A stretch of DNA of 64,000 nucleotides from Planctomycetota bacterium (GTDB lineage: Bacteria > Planctomycetota > Brocadiia > Brocadiales > Brocadiaceae): positions 1-64,000 of the forward strand of contig VGXV01000004.1 of the NCBI GenBank assembly GCA_016873165.1. The letters run 5' to 3'. Positions 1,644 through 9,507 of the stretch are shown here, one piece after another (the stretch's first letter is position 1; the number at the start of each line of letters is the position of its first letter). The position numbers and the translations under genes were made by a program. Under the pieces are notes generated by a model. It ran no database searches. It saw only the letters and a program-made list of their open reading frames with translations, and was not told the DNA's origin.

Positions 1644-2867
1644 TTACCGTCTATTTTTCCCTTTCCCTTTCCCTTTCCCATTGTCATTGTCATTGCCCTT
1701 ACCCTTGCCATGATCATCATCATCATCATCATCGTCATCGTCGTCATCATCATCATCATCATCATCATCGTCATCGTCGTCGTCGTCGTCATCATCTTTT
1801 CCTTTTTTAGTTCCCTTTACCTTAACAGTATCGCTTCCCTCAAATTTTGTCCCATCCGATAATTCTCCGGTAATGGTAAACTCGACTGTTTCCGATTCAC
1901 TTGTTTTTAAATCCAGGTCTATTTGTAAATCACTTATATTAAACTTAACCTTGAGATAGTCCTTTTTTTCCTGACAATCTATTGCAGCAGCGCCTTCGCA
2001 TACCACCGTTTCACACACTATATCATCGATATCATACGGTGAAGGGAGTTCGATATTGGCAATAAATTTCCCGTTGCTGTTGAGATTAATCGTCTTCGAC
2101 TGGAAATTTATATCTGCCGTTATAACAGAAGGCTCCTGACCTGGCGTTGCTGTCGGAGTGGCAGAAGGTTCTGTTGGTGTTGCTGCAGGCGTAGCAGTAG
2201 CATCAGGAGTTGCAGACGGTGTAGGTGTAGGAGTCGTTTCTCCTTCCTCAATCACACCTCCCGGAACCAGCAGTTCAACAGCATCAACAGACAATGATGA
2301 AGAAATATTTAAGGCAGATGTTGAACTTGGTGTGGCAGTTGCAGTCGGCGCCGCAGGTGAAGTTGCAGCAGTTGGAGTTGGAGATGCCGATACAACAGGG
2401 GTTGGAGAACTTGCCGGAGAAGGCGAGGCAGTGGCAACCGGAGAAGGCGTGGGTGTTCCTGCTGGAGAAGTCTCTTCAGTAATAACGACCCGTATAATCT
2501 CCACTTTATCACCCGCTTGAAGATCCAGATCCCATTCCTCCGATGCGTCACCATCTACAATATCAAAAGGGAATTCATAGGTCTTCTCATCATTATTTAC
2601 TTCTGTTTCAATAACCAAAGTGCATGTTTTATTGGCAGACAACAGTGGTGTGTCCAGATGCATTAAATCAACTATTGACAACTGTACTTTTCCGTTTTTG
2701 TCTATTTCAATGCTTGCATTTAATTTGTTGATTGCATAAGCATTTGAATCACTTGCGGTAAGGCTGGTTTCATAAAGGGTATCAGCGCCCTTTCCTTCAG
2801 TGGCAAAAGCCAGACAAATACCTGCAAATACTACCGACCATACAAATAAAACAAATCTTCTTTGCAT
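1644..2867 (-). CDS. Secreted protein with TP/SP linker, beta-sandwich-like domain and 28-Asp tail
   Basis: About 407 residues. It begins with a signal peptide (basic start, hydrophobic core FVLFVWSVVFAGICLAF, then AT-EGKGA). A first domain of about 110 residues follows, then a long Thr/Pro/Ser/Ala linker with TPTPSP-type repeats. Next comes a domain opening with SKTINLNSNGKF and ending GTKFEGSDTVKVKG, resembling a repeat common in surface proteins of planctomycetes and archaea. The tail has 28 consecutive Asp codons (1713-1796) and ends in a Gly/Lys/Asn-rich basic segment. The upstream AGGAGG lies 6 bases before the ATG at 2867 and only 3 before the one at 2870, so I choose 2867. It is controlled by a c-di-GMP riboswitch. 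The function is unknown; an acidic, probably Ca-binding matrix or cell-surface protein is an inference. Confidence 0.85.
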   Translation of the reverse strand: MQRRFVLFVWSVVFAGICLAFATEGKGADTLYETSLTASDSNAYAINKLNASIEIDKNGKVQLSIVDLMHLDTPLLSANKTCTLVIETEVNNDEKTYEFPFDIVDGDASEEWDLDLQAGDKVEIIRVVITEETSPAGTPTPSPVATASPSPASSPTPVVSASPTPTAATSPAAPTATATPSSTSALNISSSLSVDAVELLVPGGVIEEGETTPTPTPSATPDATATPAATPTEPSATPTATPGQEPSVITADINFQSKTINLNSNGKFIANIELPSPYDIDDIVCETVVCEGAAAIDCQEKKDYLKVKFNISDLQIDLDLKTSESETVEFTITGELSDGTKFEGSDTVKVKGTKKGKDDDDDDDDDDDDDDDDDDDDDDDDDDDDHGKGKGNDNDNGKGKGKGKNRR

Positions 2868-2929
2868 CATCTTCCTCCTTTACTTCAAAAAAATTTTCAC
2901 TGATAAATTAACTGTTTTCCACCTTTACA

Positions 2930-3121: not shown

Positions 3122-3204
3122 TACAGGTGGCAACCTGGCATTCTTCCTTAAAAAGAAGACCCATGGCTTTGCGTCCCAACCTCACGATTGGTTTGCCGTT
3201 TAAG
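3122..3204 (-). promoter_or_regulatory. Cyclic-di-GMP-I (GEMM-I) riboswitch
   Basis: Read on the minus strand, the aptamer contains GGCAAACC (3190-3197). A hairpin CCAATC-GTGA-GGTTGG with a GNRA tetraloop follows, then the class hallmark GGGACGCAAAGCC (3165-3177). A second hairpin TCTTC...GAAGA comes next and the 3' strand GGTTGCC (3129-3135) closes P1 with GGCAA. These elements, in this order, define class I cyclic-di-GMP riboswitches. The aptamer starts a few bases after a predicted promoter and lies about 250 bases before the poly-Asp gene, with a terminator between. Whether ligand turns the gene on or off cannot be read from sequence alone. Confidence 0.9.
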
Positions 3205-3210
3205 TATATA

Positions 3211-5489: not shown

Positions 5490-6687
5490 TGGGGTCAGAC
5501 CTGATCTATTGACAATAATATATATTTTTTCTTAAAACGATTATACATTTAACAGTTTTAATTACAAGGATATGTTGGGGATTGATTACTATGGCAGGTA
5601 AGCATTTTATTTGCATAGACAACTATTCGCCGGAGAGCATTTTATCGCACTGGTTATACAGGAACATTAGGGAATCGTCTTTCCGTATTTTCTCTTTCAG
5701 TCTCTTTCTTGCCTGACTCATCCCCCCAACGGTCAAACCTCCCAGCTCATGGCCGATTTCTCCTAAACTTTTATGATACAACCGATGCTTGCAACATAAA
5801 TCAATATACACCATCCTTGCTTCTCTAAATGCAGATCGCCGTTTTAACAATTCCGCGCTCTCAATTTCGAAAACGTTGCACACCGTATCTCTAATTACTT
5901 CCTGTGTAATCTCCTTAATGAGTTCTCTTGATTTTGACTGCTCTGCTTTATCAGGTTTGGCATTCTTTAACACTTTTTTATAAAGCCAATCTATAAATCC
6001 CGATCCGCCAATAACTACTTGTCCTTTCATGTCTTTAAATGGTGATTCGACATCTCTGATCAATCCCTCTTCCACATATTCCCTGTAACGCTTCCTCCCA
6101 TACGTATTATCCCCTCCTGTATATTCCAGAACATTACGGTAACACACAAAATCATTCCTGTATCGTAACAACCCGTATCCAGGGTTACTGCTCCACCGAT
6201 ATTTCTGTAAATACTCTCTCTGCTCAGAAACGGACAATTTCCGTATCTTTTTTACTTTAACAGGGTTTAAGTGGATATATCTCGAAAGCGCTAAAAGATA
6301 AGAATCCTTTTCAATAAGAATTGCCTTGTATCGTCCCTGATAGAGATGCCCGGCGCGATTATGTCTTCTGTTGTAATAGACAGTGTAGGTAGTGTTTAAT
6401 CTTTGTGCAAAACGATTAAGGTTTCCTGCGGGTGTGTGAAGGATAAGATGAAAATGGTTGTCCATGAGGACATACCCATGTAATTGCACCAGGTATTTTT
6501 CCAGACTATCTTTTAATATAACGAGAAACTTTTCGCGATCGGTGTCATCTTTGAATATGCTGTTTCTTTCGTTACCGCGTGAGGTGACATGGTACCATGC
6601 GCCATGATATTCTATTCGTAACGGTCTTGCCATGCCGATACATTAACAAATCAAATCGCTATTGTCAATAGATAAGGTTTGACCCCA
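5490..6687 (-). mobile_element. REP-associated Y1 transposon (RAYT), full-length copy
   Basis: The unit is bounded by inverted sequences. TGGGGTCAGACCTGATC...TATTGACAATA is at 5490-5517 and TATTGTCAATAGAT...TTTGACCCCA at 6660-6687. It encodes one intact IS200-like (HUH/Y1) transposase. A further stretch to about 6710 (CAAAGTTCCCAAAGTTTTT) resembles the same position in the second copy, so the right edge may be at about 6710. It truncates the 3' end of a hicA gene. A deleted copy lies at 8853-9478. Confidence 0.8.
5623..6633 (-). CDS. REP-associated tyrosine transposase (IS200-like, Y1)
   Basis: 336 residues. The N-terminal MARPLRIEYHGAWYHVTSRG opening, the HUH metal site in DNHFHLIL, and the RYIHLNPVK motif with the conserved tyrosine are diagnostic of transposase_17/Y1 REP-associated transposases. 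These cut and join single-stranded DNA via a phosphotyrosine. The C-terminal half (LGEIGHELGGLTVGGMSQARKRL) resembles the helix-turn-helix tail of DnaA-like/RAYT proteins. The frame is intact from ATG to stop, so this copy may be active. It lies within matching terminal sequences. Confidence 0.92.
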   Translation of the reverse strand: MARPLRIEYHGAWYHVTSRGNERNSIFKDDTDREKFLVILKDSLEKYLVQLHGYVLMDNHFHLILHTPAGNLNRFAQRLNTTYTVYYNRRHNRAGHLYQGRYKAILIEKDSYLLALSRYIHLNPVKVKKIRKLSVSEQREYLQKYRWSSNPGYGLLRYRNDFVCYRNVLEYTGGDNTYGRKRYREYVEEGLIRDVESPFKDMKGQVVIGGSGFIDWLYKKVLKNAKPDKAEQSKSRELIKEITQEVIRDTVCNVFEIESAELLKRRSAFREARMVYIDLCCKHRLYHKSLGEIGHELGGLTVGGMSQARKRLKEKIRKDDSLMFLYNQCDKMLSGE

Positions 6688-6853
6688 AAGTTCCCAAAGT
6701 TTTTCCTTCAAGGTTTTCGTCTATTTCATTATGTCTTGGAACAGGCTGCCTTTTCCCTGTGGCCGGATTTTTGTATAAGTCGTGACGGCTTCCATGTCTA
6801 ACAAAAACACATCCTGAATCAGTCAACCTTTTGATAAGGTCTTTTCTTTTCAT
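6665..6853 (-). pseudogene. hicA: HicA-type mRNA interferase, 3' end replaced by transposon
   Basis: The N-terminal MKRKDLIKRLTDSGCVFVRHGSRHDLY and QPVPRHNEIDENL match HicA toxins, whose catalytic His lies in the GSRHD/GSHHD motif. These are dsRNA-binding-fold mRNA interferases. After DENL the reading frame enters the right end of the transposon and reads EGKTLGTLGSNLIY before stopping. The normal final residues (usually ARRICKDLG-like) are thus lost. It overlaps the upstream hicB by four bases. Whether the truncated toxin still works is unclear. Confidence 0.8.
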
Positions 6854-7047
6854 ACGATAAGGGTAACTTCTTTAACTTTATGTTCTGCCGGAACGTCCTC
6901 CATCGTTATAAGCATAAAAGCATCTTTCATGTTTTCTTCGAGTTCTTCCAGCGTCTCACCTTGTGTCATTATTTCAGGATATTCAACGAGTTTACCCACC
7001 CAGAATTTTTCACCTTTCCAGTAAATCATTTTTAATTTTGTTTTCAT
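6850..7047 (-). CDS. hicB: HicB-type antitoxin (short form)
   Basis: 65 residues with the HicB partial RNase-H fold pattern: YWKGEKFWVGKLVEYPEIMTQG followed by TLEELEENMKDAFML. A GAGG ribosome binding site lies 7 bases before the ATG at 7047. It sits directly upstream of and overlaps hicA, the usual antitoxin-first pair that neutralises the toxin and represses its own promoter. It lacks a separate C-terminal DNA-binding domain, as many short HicBs do. It lies in the cassette-like island. Confidence 0.85.
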   Translation of the reverse strand: MKTKLKMIYWKGEKFWVGKLVEYPEIMTQGETLEELEENMKDAFMLITMEDVPAEHKVKEVTLIV

Positions 7048-7115
7048 CTTTTTACCTCACAGTGTTATTCTATGAAAATATGATAGCATAGAAGACCATG
7101 TTAGCATGCATAAGC

Positions 7116-7485
7116 TTATCTTTTCTTGGATCTTGAAGCCTCTTTCTGCATCACCTGGTCAAACCTTGTCCATCCCATTTTACATCCATATAAAGTTCCT
7201 TTGGGGAACCAGACTATAGAGACATTTGAAACAGTAAGCGTACCTAATACGGGAGCATTCCCAATTTTTTGTAAAATGTGGAGGTATTATGCGGGGGATA
7301 AACCACCCGCGCTACGACACATATTGCATGGTAGCGCCGATCCTTTATGGTCGGCTTTATTTTGATTTACAAAAAATTGGGAATGCTCCCCCTAATACCG
7401 CCCCATCAATTTTAACTTGAAATTCGACATCTGCCTTCCCGAGATCACGTTGCGGGATATTGAAAGAAACATCGTGTTTAGCCAT
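7116..7485 (-). pseudogene. Small conserved hypothetical gene split by a MITE
   Basis: The ATG at 7485, with AAGGAGA upstream, begins MAKHDVSFNIPQRDLGKADVEF and reaches GAVLG, where the 140-bp MITE at 7251-7390 interrupts it. Past the MITE the same frame resumes as GTLTVSNVSIVWFPKGTLYG and ends at TAA (7116-7118) after SRSKKR. Without the MITE and one target duplication it would be a compact protein of about 73 residues, of a kind I recognise only as a widespread small hypothetical. It begins about 20 bases after the attC-like site, as integron cassette genes do. Confidence 0.75.
7251..7390. mobile_element. MITE-like element, copy 2 (140 bp)
   Basis: Terminal inverted repeats GGGAGCATTCCCAATTTTTT at each end (7251-7274 and 7367-7390) match the element at 309-462. 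The perfect 8-bp target duplication CCTAATAC is at 7243-7250 and 7391-7398. The interior carries two small hairpins (around GCGGGGGATAAACCACCCGC and GCCGATCCTTTATGGTCGGC) and no gene. It splits a small cassette-type gene, which proves movement after that gene arrived. Confidence 0.9.
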
Positions 7486-7507
7486 TTTTATTGTCTCCTT
7501 TCCCTTG

Positions 7508-7635
7508 ACATAACGTCGGCGCGTCAGTTGCGCCCGACTAAAAAAGGCGCACCAATTAAACACCAAACGCTTGCCAACCACGAATACCTCTTAAACATGC
7601 GGCGTAAGGGTGTCAACTGCACGCGCATGTTAGGC
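7508..7635 (-). other. attC-like integron recombination site (128 bp)
   Basis: On the minus strand the site opens with GCCTAAC (7629-7635), a perfect RYYYAAC R'' box, and ends with GTTATGT (7508-7514), a GTTRRRY R' box with one mismatch. Inside, GCGCGT-G-CAGTTG pairs with CAACTGACGCGC, leaving one unpaired base on the R'' side. That is the extrahelical base which sets attC orientation. The site begins 21 bases past the higA stop and ends 22 bases before the next start codon, which is standard cassette spacing. All features were seen by eye; no covariance model was run. Confidence 0.75.
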
Positions 7636-7656
7636 TATCTGGTATGGTTTTCTATG

Positions 7657-7974
7657 TCACCCCTTGAACGGGATAGGCTGTGTCATGGATAAAACAACCA
7701 CCTCGCGGTTGATCCGCTTCGCCACTTTCGCTGCAGTGGCCTCCAGATCATACCGCGCCTGCAGGCGGAGCCAGACCACCGCACTCGTGCCAAAATACCG
7801 CGCCAATCGCAATGCCGTATCCGCCGTAACCGCACGCTACCCACGGATAATCTGACTAATCCGCAATGCCGGCACACCAATATCTTTCGCCACACGGTAC
7901 TGGCTCAGCCCCAGGGGCTTCATAAAGTCTTCTAATAATACTTCGCCAGGATGAACAGCCGGTAATCTTTCCAT
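7657..7974 (-). pseudogene. higA: HigA-family antitoxin gene with a premature stop
   Basis: The ATG at 7974, after AGGGAG, begins MERLPAVHPGEVLLEDFMKP and LGLSQYRVAKDIGVP, the XRE helix-turn-helix of HigA/VapI antitoxins. Codon 46 is TAG (7837-7839) at the position normally occupied by Lys in the motif GKRAVTADTALRLARYFG. The rest of the domain then continues in frame to a TGA at 7657. The antitoxin is therefore probably truncated within its DNA-binding domain. It follows the toxin ORF by 10 bases, the usual higBA order. Confidence 0.85.
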
Positions 7975-7984
7975 ACGTACTCCC

Positions 7985-8188
7985 TTATTTGTGATAATCC
8001 ACTATCTCCACGTCTCTTGCCTTGCCTTTGCCCCATTTGAAACAAATACGCCATTGGTCATTGATGCGGATACCGTGTTGACCGTCTCGGTCGCCTTGTA
8101 GGGACTCCAGCCGATTGCCCGGTGGGGCGGCCAAATCGCGTAAATCTTCCGCAACTTCCTTTAAGACAATGACTTTCCTTACTTTCAT
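7985..8188 (-). CDS. Chimeric toxin: ParE-like N-terminus joined to HigB-like C-terminus
   Basis: 67 residues. The first 16, MKVRKVIVLKEVAEDL, are a ParE/RelE-type opening. From DLRDLAAPPGNRLE through SIRINDQWRICFKW-like residues to DVEIVDYHK the protein is a HigB (RelE superfamily ribosome-dependent RNase) C-terminal half. The middle of both families is missing. The antitoxin directly upstream is the partner usual for ParE-like toxins, while the gene downstream is a higA. The simplest reading is a deletion that fused two adjacent toxin-antitoxin cassettes in frame. It is probably inactive. Confidence 0.8.
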   Translation of the reverse strand: MKVRKVIVLKEVAEDLRDLAAPPGNRLESLQGDRDGQHGIRINDQWRICFKWGKGKARDVEIVDYHK

Positions 8189-8391
8189 TTGCGTCCACGT
8201 GCTGTCAGTTCCTCGATTGAAATAAACTCGGCTTTACCTGTTTCAATTTTCTTTCTCCTATTTTCAAGAATTGTTCCGTGCCACTCTGGTGAATCGATTT
8301 CTTTATCTTCGTGGCATAAGGCATCCCAGAGTTCTTCCATCGCTCGTAAACGTTCAATTGTAGGCATTTTTTTAATTTCAATACTAGTCAT
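8185..8391 (-). CDS. Addiction-module antitoxin (TIGR02574-like)
   Basis: 68 residues from the ATG at 8391, which has AAAGGA 9 bases upstream. An earlier TTG at 8409 is less likely. The sequence MTSIEIKKMPTIERLRAMEELWDAL, then SPEWH and a C-terminal EFISIEELTARGRK, matches the short putative addiction-module component family that precedes ParE/RelE-like toxins. Its stop overlaps the toxin start by four bases. Its own toxin survives only as the first 16 residues of the chimera downstream. GTTAGCAT about 28 bases upstream of the start (forward 8418-8425) resembles a cassette boundary. Confidence 0.75.
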   Translation of the reverse strand: MTSIEIKKMPTIERLRAMEELWDALCHEDKEIDSPEWHGTILENRRKKIETGKAEFISIEELTARGRK

Positions 8392-8430
8392 CGTTTTCAA
8401 TCCTTTCAAAATTTTTTATGCTAACAATAA

Positions 8431-8583
8431 TTATACAGTCTGTATAAAACGGCAAACACAGACAGATTTGATATATATAAAAAGTTACCGTTTGTTCTTT
8501 TTGTTGGTTGCAACTTGCTTCGCATTAAGCATTTCCTGCTTGTTAGCCAAATAACTCATTCCGGTTTATACAGACTGTATAAA
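8431..8583. repeat. Inverted pair of 17-18-bp palindromes bounding 153 bp
   Basis: TTATACAGTCTGTATAAAACGG (8431-8452, on the plus strand) and TTTATACAGTCTGTATAAACCGG read on the minus strand (8583-8561) are inverted copies, each itself nearly palindromic. They frame 110 bases without a gene, lying exactly between the recombinase fragment and the first cassette-type gene. The region could be a small non-autonomous element, a recombination-site region or a pair of repressor sites. Nothing in the sequence decides between these. Confidence 0.65.
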
Positions 8584-8588
8584 CTGAC

Positions 8589-8865
8589 CTACAGCCCATC
8601 GACAGGACTCCGGACACCGTGGCCTCCTTTGGACATGGGTGTAAATCATAGTTGTGCTAACGTCTATGTGGCCAAGAAGTTCCTGGATAGTACGAATATC
8701 ATAACCAGCCTCAGGCAAATGCGTGGCAAAAGAGTGGCGGAAGGTGTGGCAACCGGCGTGTTTGACTACACCCGCATTGCGGACTGCTTCCCTGACCATC
8801 CGCTGAAGAATCGTCTCGTGGATATGATGCCGCCCTTCTTCACCAGAACCATTGGGGTAAACCCA
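8589..8865 (-). pseudogene. C-terminal fragment of an IntI-like tyrosine recombinase
   Basis: Read leftwards from about 8865 the frame gives [18 protein letters not shown], then the catalytic box [19 protein letters not shown], then [21 protein letters not shown] with the His and nucleophilic Tyr. This is the integron/XerC-like core typical of IntI. A one-base shift after THVQR moves the frame; in the shifted frame it ends [12 protein letters not shown] and stops at 8589. The 5' part is missing because the deleted RAYT copy begins inside the WVYPN codons. The gene is dead. Its 3' end faces the cassette-like genes. Confidence 0.85.
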
Positions 8866-9478
8866 ATCTATTGATAATAATATGTTTTTTCCTAAAACGA
8901 TTATACATTTAACCGTTTTAATTACAAGAATATGTTGGAATCAGGCAAATCCTTTTGCCTGCATAAATAACTATTCGTCAGAAAGCGCTTTACCACCGCA
9001 AATACACTCTCTGTCCTGAAACCGGCAATTTCTGTATTTTTTTTTAATCTTAACAGGGTTTAAGTAGAGGTATCGCGAAAACGCCAAAAGATAAGAACTT
9101 TTTCGATAAGAATTGCCTTCCATCGTCCCTGATAGAGATGCCCGGCGCGATTATGTCTTCTGTTGTAATAGACAGTGTAGGTAGTGTTTAATCTTTGTGC
9201 AAAACGATTAAGGTTTCCTGCGGGTGTGTGAAGGATAAGATGAAAAGGTTTTCCATGAGGACATAGCCATGTAATTGCACCAGGTATTTTTCCAGACTAT
9301 CTTTTAATATAACGAGAAACTTTTCGCGATCGGTGTCATCTTTGAATATGCTGTTTCTTTCGTTACCGCGTGAGGTGAAATGGTACCATGCACCATGATA
9401 TTCTATTCGTAACGGTCTTGCCATGCCGATACATTAACAAATCGAATCGCTATTGTCAATAGATTAGGTTTGACCCCA
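8853..9478 (-). mobile_element. RAYT element, internally deleted copy
   Basis: Left end TGGGGTAAACCCAATC at 8853 and right end TTTGACCCCA at 9478 match the full copy at 5490-6687. The flanking AT-rich stretch (CTAAAACGATTATACATTTAA) is also shared. About 570 bases of the transposase gene, corresponding roughly to 5650-6210 of the full copy, are absent. It has landed in, and truncates, the recombinase gene fragment at 8589-8865. Confidence 0.85.
8970..9424 (-). pseudogene. Truncated REP-associated transposase
   Basis: The frame begins identically to the intact transposase at 6633 (MARPLRIEYHGAWYH) for about 58 residues. A small deletion just before the HUH motif then shifts it to LMENLFILSF, destroying the HxH site. 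Most of the middle of the gene is deleted, and only remnants of the RYIHLNPV region (about 9040-9110) and the extreme 3' end remain. It cannot encode a working transposase. Confidence 0.85.
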
Positions 9479-9507
9479 AAGTTTTTTCCAAAGTTTTTTT
9501 GCAGAAC

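Follow-up and report, generated by a model that had tools for sequence, protein, structure and literature searches.

Positions 7508–7635 of a 64,000-nucleotide (nt) stretch of contig VGXV01000004.1, from a Planctomycetota bacterium of the family Brocadiaceae (the whole stretch is called the window below), almost certainly form the attC site of a cassette in a chromosomal integron that has decayed and in which the integrase gene intI points toward the attI site and the cassettes. We regard the identity of the site as near certain because a remnant of intI, attI and toxin-antitoxin cassettes surround it. The integrase remnant, attI, the homology breakpoints of the cassettes and the decay of the array all go beyond a preliminary description of the site, which was made from its sequence.

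Structure of the attC site

The site has the paired R and L boxes of an attC, read in gene sense on the minus strand. The R″ box (GCCTAAC) agrees with the RYYYAAC consensus, and the AAC/GTT pair is conserved; the R′ box (GTTATGT) differs from GTTRRRY at one position, a small correction to the preliminary description, which had otherwise given both boxes correctly. The arms pair as was claimed there, with L″ ATGCGCGT-G-CAGTTG-A opposite CAACTG-ACGCGC-CGAC. The unpaired base on the R″-side arm, the extrahelical base (EHB), is the G at 7620, the ninth base after R″, and a second unpaired base (A) lies on the same arm six pairs inward from it. Both agree with the geometry of 118 attC sites from 42 integron loci in other genomes, where the EHB occupies this ninth position in 101 sites and is C or G in 102, and where a second extrahelical base, A or G, follows six pairs further in. 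The arms enclose a terminal loop of 83 nt. The gene distances given earlier are right: 21 nt separate the stop codon of the upstream gene (TGA, 7659–7657) from R″, and a further 22 nt separate R′ from the ATG of the downstream gene (7485–7483).

A crude score for complementarity of the arms is borderline (47.0, against a maximum of 46.1 in shuffled sequence), so the case is carried by the EHB geometry and the context. Because such a plain inverted-repeat score is not specific enough, we trained a log-odds attC model on the 118 sites. It gives the window site 42.7 in the predicted orientation, which matches that of the genes, and 24.2 in the opposite one. The runner-up elsewhere in the window reaches 18.3, the best score in 12 dinucleotide-shuffled windows is 23.5, and about 30% of the training sites score below the window attC. 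A covariance model of our own, built from 44 of the training sites and run with filters off, likewise finds the site with a strong score (31.6 bits, E = 8.2e-5), all other matches in the window having 9.2 bits or less. A search of Rfam returned no family matching the site at the gathering threshold.

The minimum-energy fold of the bottom strand (the plus strand of the window), calculated with DNA parameters, is the attC hairpin with its R boxes paired. Pairing of the R and L boxes has an ensemble probability (Pfold) of 0.041 in the bottom strand, ∼100-fold above the 0.00035 of the top strand; several other long attC sites in the training set have a Pfold below that of the window site. Such a bias is expected, as IntI binds the bottom strand and the first extrahelical base mainly directs the choice (PMC2727003). 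By established integron biochemistry, the bottom strand would fold into a hairpin whose R and L boxes are bound by IntI. Guided by the extrahelical bases in its choice of strand, the enzyme would cut R′ in the bottom strand between C and A and join it to attI or to another attC. The crossover in the window site is expected between G7514 and T7513.

Integrase remnant, attI and cassettes

Less than 1 kb from the attC lies the C-terminal part of an integron integrase gene (Table 1). It is frameshifted after residue 299, lacks the N-terminus and the region of the first catalytic Arg, and is 87% identical over 72–75 residues to the intact IntI of two related genomes (G031, which is of the same family, and G012). 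The DNA past the remnant is 84% identical to that of G031 and 67–79% identical to that of G012 and three further loci (L049, L050 and L053). All five alignments stop at the GTT at 8425, beyond which the DNA differs from genome to genome; this is attI. As in a complete integron, attI lies beside intI and cassettes are inserted there; an intact intI in cis is missing. The intI remnant, attI and cassettes follow in this order on the minus strand, as they do in G031, G012, L049 and L050. A further attC candidate running from GGCTAAC (near 8547) to the GTTAGCA at 8425 was rejected, as it lacks L-box complementarity and lies in the conserved attI platform region.

Cassette 1, which ends in the attC, appears to have a composite origin. 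Its first 284 nt, comprising the PF09720 antitoxin gene and the start of the toxin gene, match a cassette in G004 at 88% identity, and this homology begins at a GTT. The G004 homologue of cassette 1 does not adjoin attI there: a different cassette, whose own attC scores 46.2, lies in between. Near 8142 the match to G004 stops and one to the higBA modules of other relatives (L135–L139, about 75% identical) starts. The toxin gene is thus a fusion that begins as RelE type and ends as HigB, apparently drawn from two cassettes or modules.

Cassette 2 consists of a 73-amino acid (aa) open reading frame (ORF), hicB and hicA, and is 92–97% identical to a cassette in G013, a genome of another genus. 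The homology begins one nucleotide ahead of R′ in the window attC. The copy in G013 (L128) has a different attC in front (1416–1477) and an attC after hicA (2161–2220). In the core genes rpsB-tsf-pyrH the two genomes are just 70% identical; cassette 2 has therefore moved between genera, and one of its edges coincides with the recombination point. No attC is expected between the 73-aa ORF and hicB, since in G013 the ORF and hicBA form one cassette. A search of plasmids found weak matches to the toxin genes only.

Table 1. Features of the integron region, with coordinates in the window
Feature	Position	Strand	Remarks
REP-associated tyrosine transposase element	5490–6708		336-aa transposase, 6633–5623
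Cassette 2 remnant	6709–7513	minus	terminal attC missing
hicA, cassette 2	6853 onward	minus	3′ end replaced
hicB, cassette 2	7047–6850	minus	
73-aa ORF, cassette 2	7485–7117	minus	split by MITE
MITE in cassette 2 ORF	7251–7390		perfect inverted repeats of 25 bp at both ends; target duplication of 8 bp, GTATTAGG
attC site of cassette 1	7508–7635	minus (gene sense)	model scores, arm geometry, folding
attC R′ box GTTATGT	7514–7508	minus	
attC R″ box GCCTAAC	7635–7629	minus	
Cassette 1	7514–8424	minus	PF09720 antitoxin, chimeric toxin, higA, then attC
higA, cassette 1	7974–7657	minus	internal TAG, 7839–7837
Chimeric RelE/HigB-type toxin, cassette 1	8188–7985	minus	junction about 8142
PF09720 antitoxin, cassette 1	8409–8185	minus	
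attI R box GTTAGCA	8419–8425	minus	GTT at 8425
Palindrome P2 TTATACAGACTGTATAA	8431–8447	minus	ends 5 nt before attI GTT
Palindrome P1 TTATACAGTCTGTATAA	8566–8582	minus	just past ancestral intI stop codon
intI remnant	8865–8592	minus	C-terminal residues about 215–314 of 314
Degenerate REP-associated tyrosine transposase element	8847–9483		adjoins 5′ side of intI remnant
MITE, miniature inverted-repeat transposable element; REP, repetitive extragenic palindromic.

The breakpoints of both cassettes at recombination points give indirect support for recombination of the attC by IntI, and we infer that the site once recombined in this way. Several points weigh against reading it as the attC of a decayed integron. 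Its R′ box is one base off consensus and has a long spacer of 10 nt, and the boundary of cassette 1 in G004 sits 7 bp past the R′ box picked by the model. Across 62 genomes of the order the exact attC sequence has no other occurrence, and BLAST found no second copy of this DNA in its own genome, so that cassette 1 and its attC have not been seen together at a second place. Finally, the list from the covariance-model search of its own genome does not include the window attC, perhaps because of its long loop.

Decay and alternative explanations

The integron has decayed. Its intI is truncated, higA carries an internal stop codon, a MITE has inserted into cassette 2, and the terminal attC of that cassette is gone. 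The G013 copy (L128) retains the empty site of the MITE; an element similar to this MITE occurs at about 304–463 of the window, and related ends are found at 304–330/443–463 and in L209. In cassette 2, the REP-associated element at 5490–6708 has replaced both the 3′ end of hicA and the terminal attC.

In another reading, the attC still works in an active integron of this strain and uses an integrase encoded at a different place in the genome. The attC is structurally intact, relatives encode intact IntI (24 of 59 genomes above the cut-off), and an assembly of 191 contigs may miss a copy. However, this assembly is rated 100% complete and holds no match above the IntI cut-off, and no intact intI was found in it. 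The copy on C28 (L044, C28:6555–7200) retains residues 1–88 and 188–315 and is without the middle (residues about 89–187). That on C4 is truncated, and the matches on C8 and C96 are C-terminal fragments. We therefore consider an active integron unlikely, and, because the intI copies of the genome are broken, the window attC is probably now frozen unless IntI is supplied in trans. Elsewhere in the genome there are about 26 attC candidates at E < 0.01 (the E-values are rough), several of them arrayed, as on C8, C37 and C13. A second integron region (C8:1–14000, L046) has several minus-strand attC sites and a plus-strand C-terminal fragment of IntI (C8:8374–8526).

Alternatively, a genuine attC might have reached this place through transposition or illegitimate recombination and not through IntI acting at attI. 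Two related REP-associated tyrosine transposase elements flank the region and two toxin genes were fused illegitimately inside cassette 1; yet cassette 1 starts at the GTT of attI and cassette 2 at R′, which makes such an origin quite improbable. A chance or unrelated inverted repeat (e.g. a terminator or REP-like palindrome) is the least probable reading and is already refuted by the homology breakpoint and the model scores: shuffled sequence can reach the crude arm score and the fold z-score is only −1.2, but the trained models single out the site in the right orientation, it lies close to the intI remnant and attI, and the homologous cassette in another genus begins at its R′ box. The attC of a decayed integron remains our reading.

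A palindrome pair and dispersed attI platforms

The attI platform carries a pair of perfect 17-nt palindromes (TTATACAGNCTGTATAA), two copies lying about 134 bp apart where 0.01 would be expected in the window. A search of the 62 genomes with a consensus of the inter-palindrome DNA alone found platforms in 25, all of the family to which the window genome belongs, with up to seven per genome. Of 36 copies fetched, 24 have a perfect P2 and 33 have the GTT at +5, even though full-length interiors have a mean identity of 85% to the query. Conservation of the palindromes is somewhat biased upward, some of the scored loci and the platforms behind the consensus having been chosen by palindrome. The first-cassette DNA after the GTT mostly differs. 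Many copies retain just the last 25–27 residues of IntI and in others intI is undetectable (L214–L263 in relatives; L209, at C1:173138, in the genome of the window itself), and homology to intact intI ends at the same place across the truncated platforms of several genomes. The palindrome pair is also conserved in IntI loci of metagenome-assembled genomes named Omnitrophota, Actinomycetota and Desulfuromonas.

The palindromes overlap TATAAT and could be an operator or, alternatively, an accessory recombination site. LexA found no support as their binding factor; with up to one mismatch, the genome has the two copies here and one at the platform remnant on C1. It is conceivable, if doubtful, that these platforms make up a distributed integron, in which many dispersed attI platforms without most or all of intI keep the nearly invariant palindrome pair and, at +5, the GTT, hold different first cassettes, and may be served by one IntI in trans and by a control factor that binds the palindromes; the window platform would then be a decaying member. 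The pair provides a sequence tag for finding platforms without intI and poses the question of a regulator or accessory site.

Other features of the window

Outside the integron region, a c-di-GMP-I-GGC riboswitch aptamer is matched at 3125–3206 (minus strand) just over the Rfam gathering score. A 408-aa ORF at 1644–2870 (minus strand) has a long run of Asp residues and a tail rich in Gly and Lys.

Comparison with known systems

The site belongs to a known system, the chromosomal integron, of which it is a well-documented case, and not to a new one. Searches of an open-access literature collection gave no paper on integrons of anammox bacteria. The homology breakpoints at recombination points document that cassettes were exchanged between genera of the host family, which is probably anammox, and the locus documents how a chromosomal integron decays.

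Treponema integrons have the order intI, attI and cassettes in one direction (PMC3607928). The window shares with them an attC with a protruding base and an intI transcribed toward attI, and for T. phagedenis the same paper describes a loss of intI after which attC and cassettes stay behind. Unlike them, the window integron comes from another phylum, its intI is truncated beside a REP-associated tyrosine transposase element, and paired palindromes accompany attI. The chromosomal attC sites of Planctomycetes modelled in PMC8352920 share the phylum, the R and L box architecture and the chromosomal setting, whereas the window site has a long terminal loop. Clusters of attC sites without an integrase (CALIN, a term used in PMC7923331) likewise lack a functional intI beside the cassettes, but the window keeps attI and part of intI. 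Among the toxin-antitoxin cassettes known from chromosomal integrons are HigBA, HicAB and PF09720-RelE type modules as here; in the window these are damaged, with a chimeric toxin, a stop codon in higA and a replaced hicA end.
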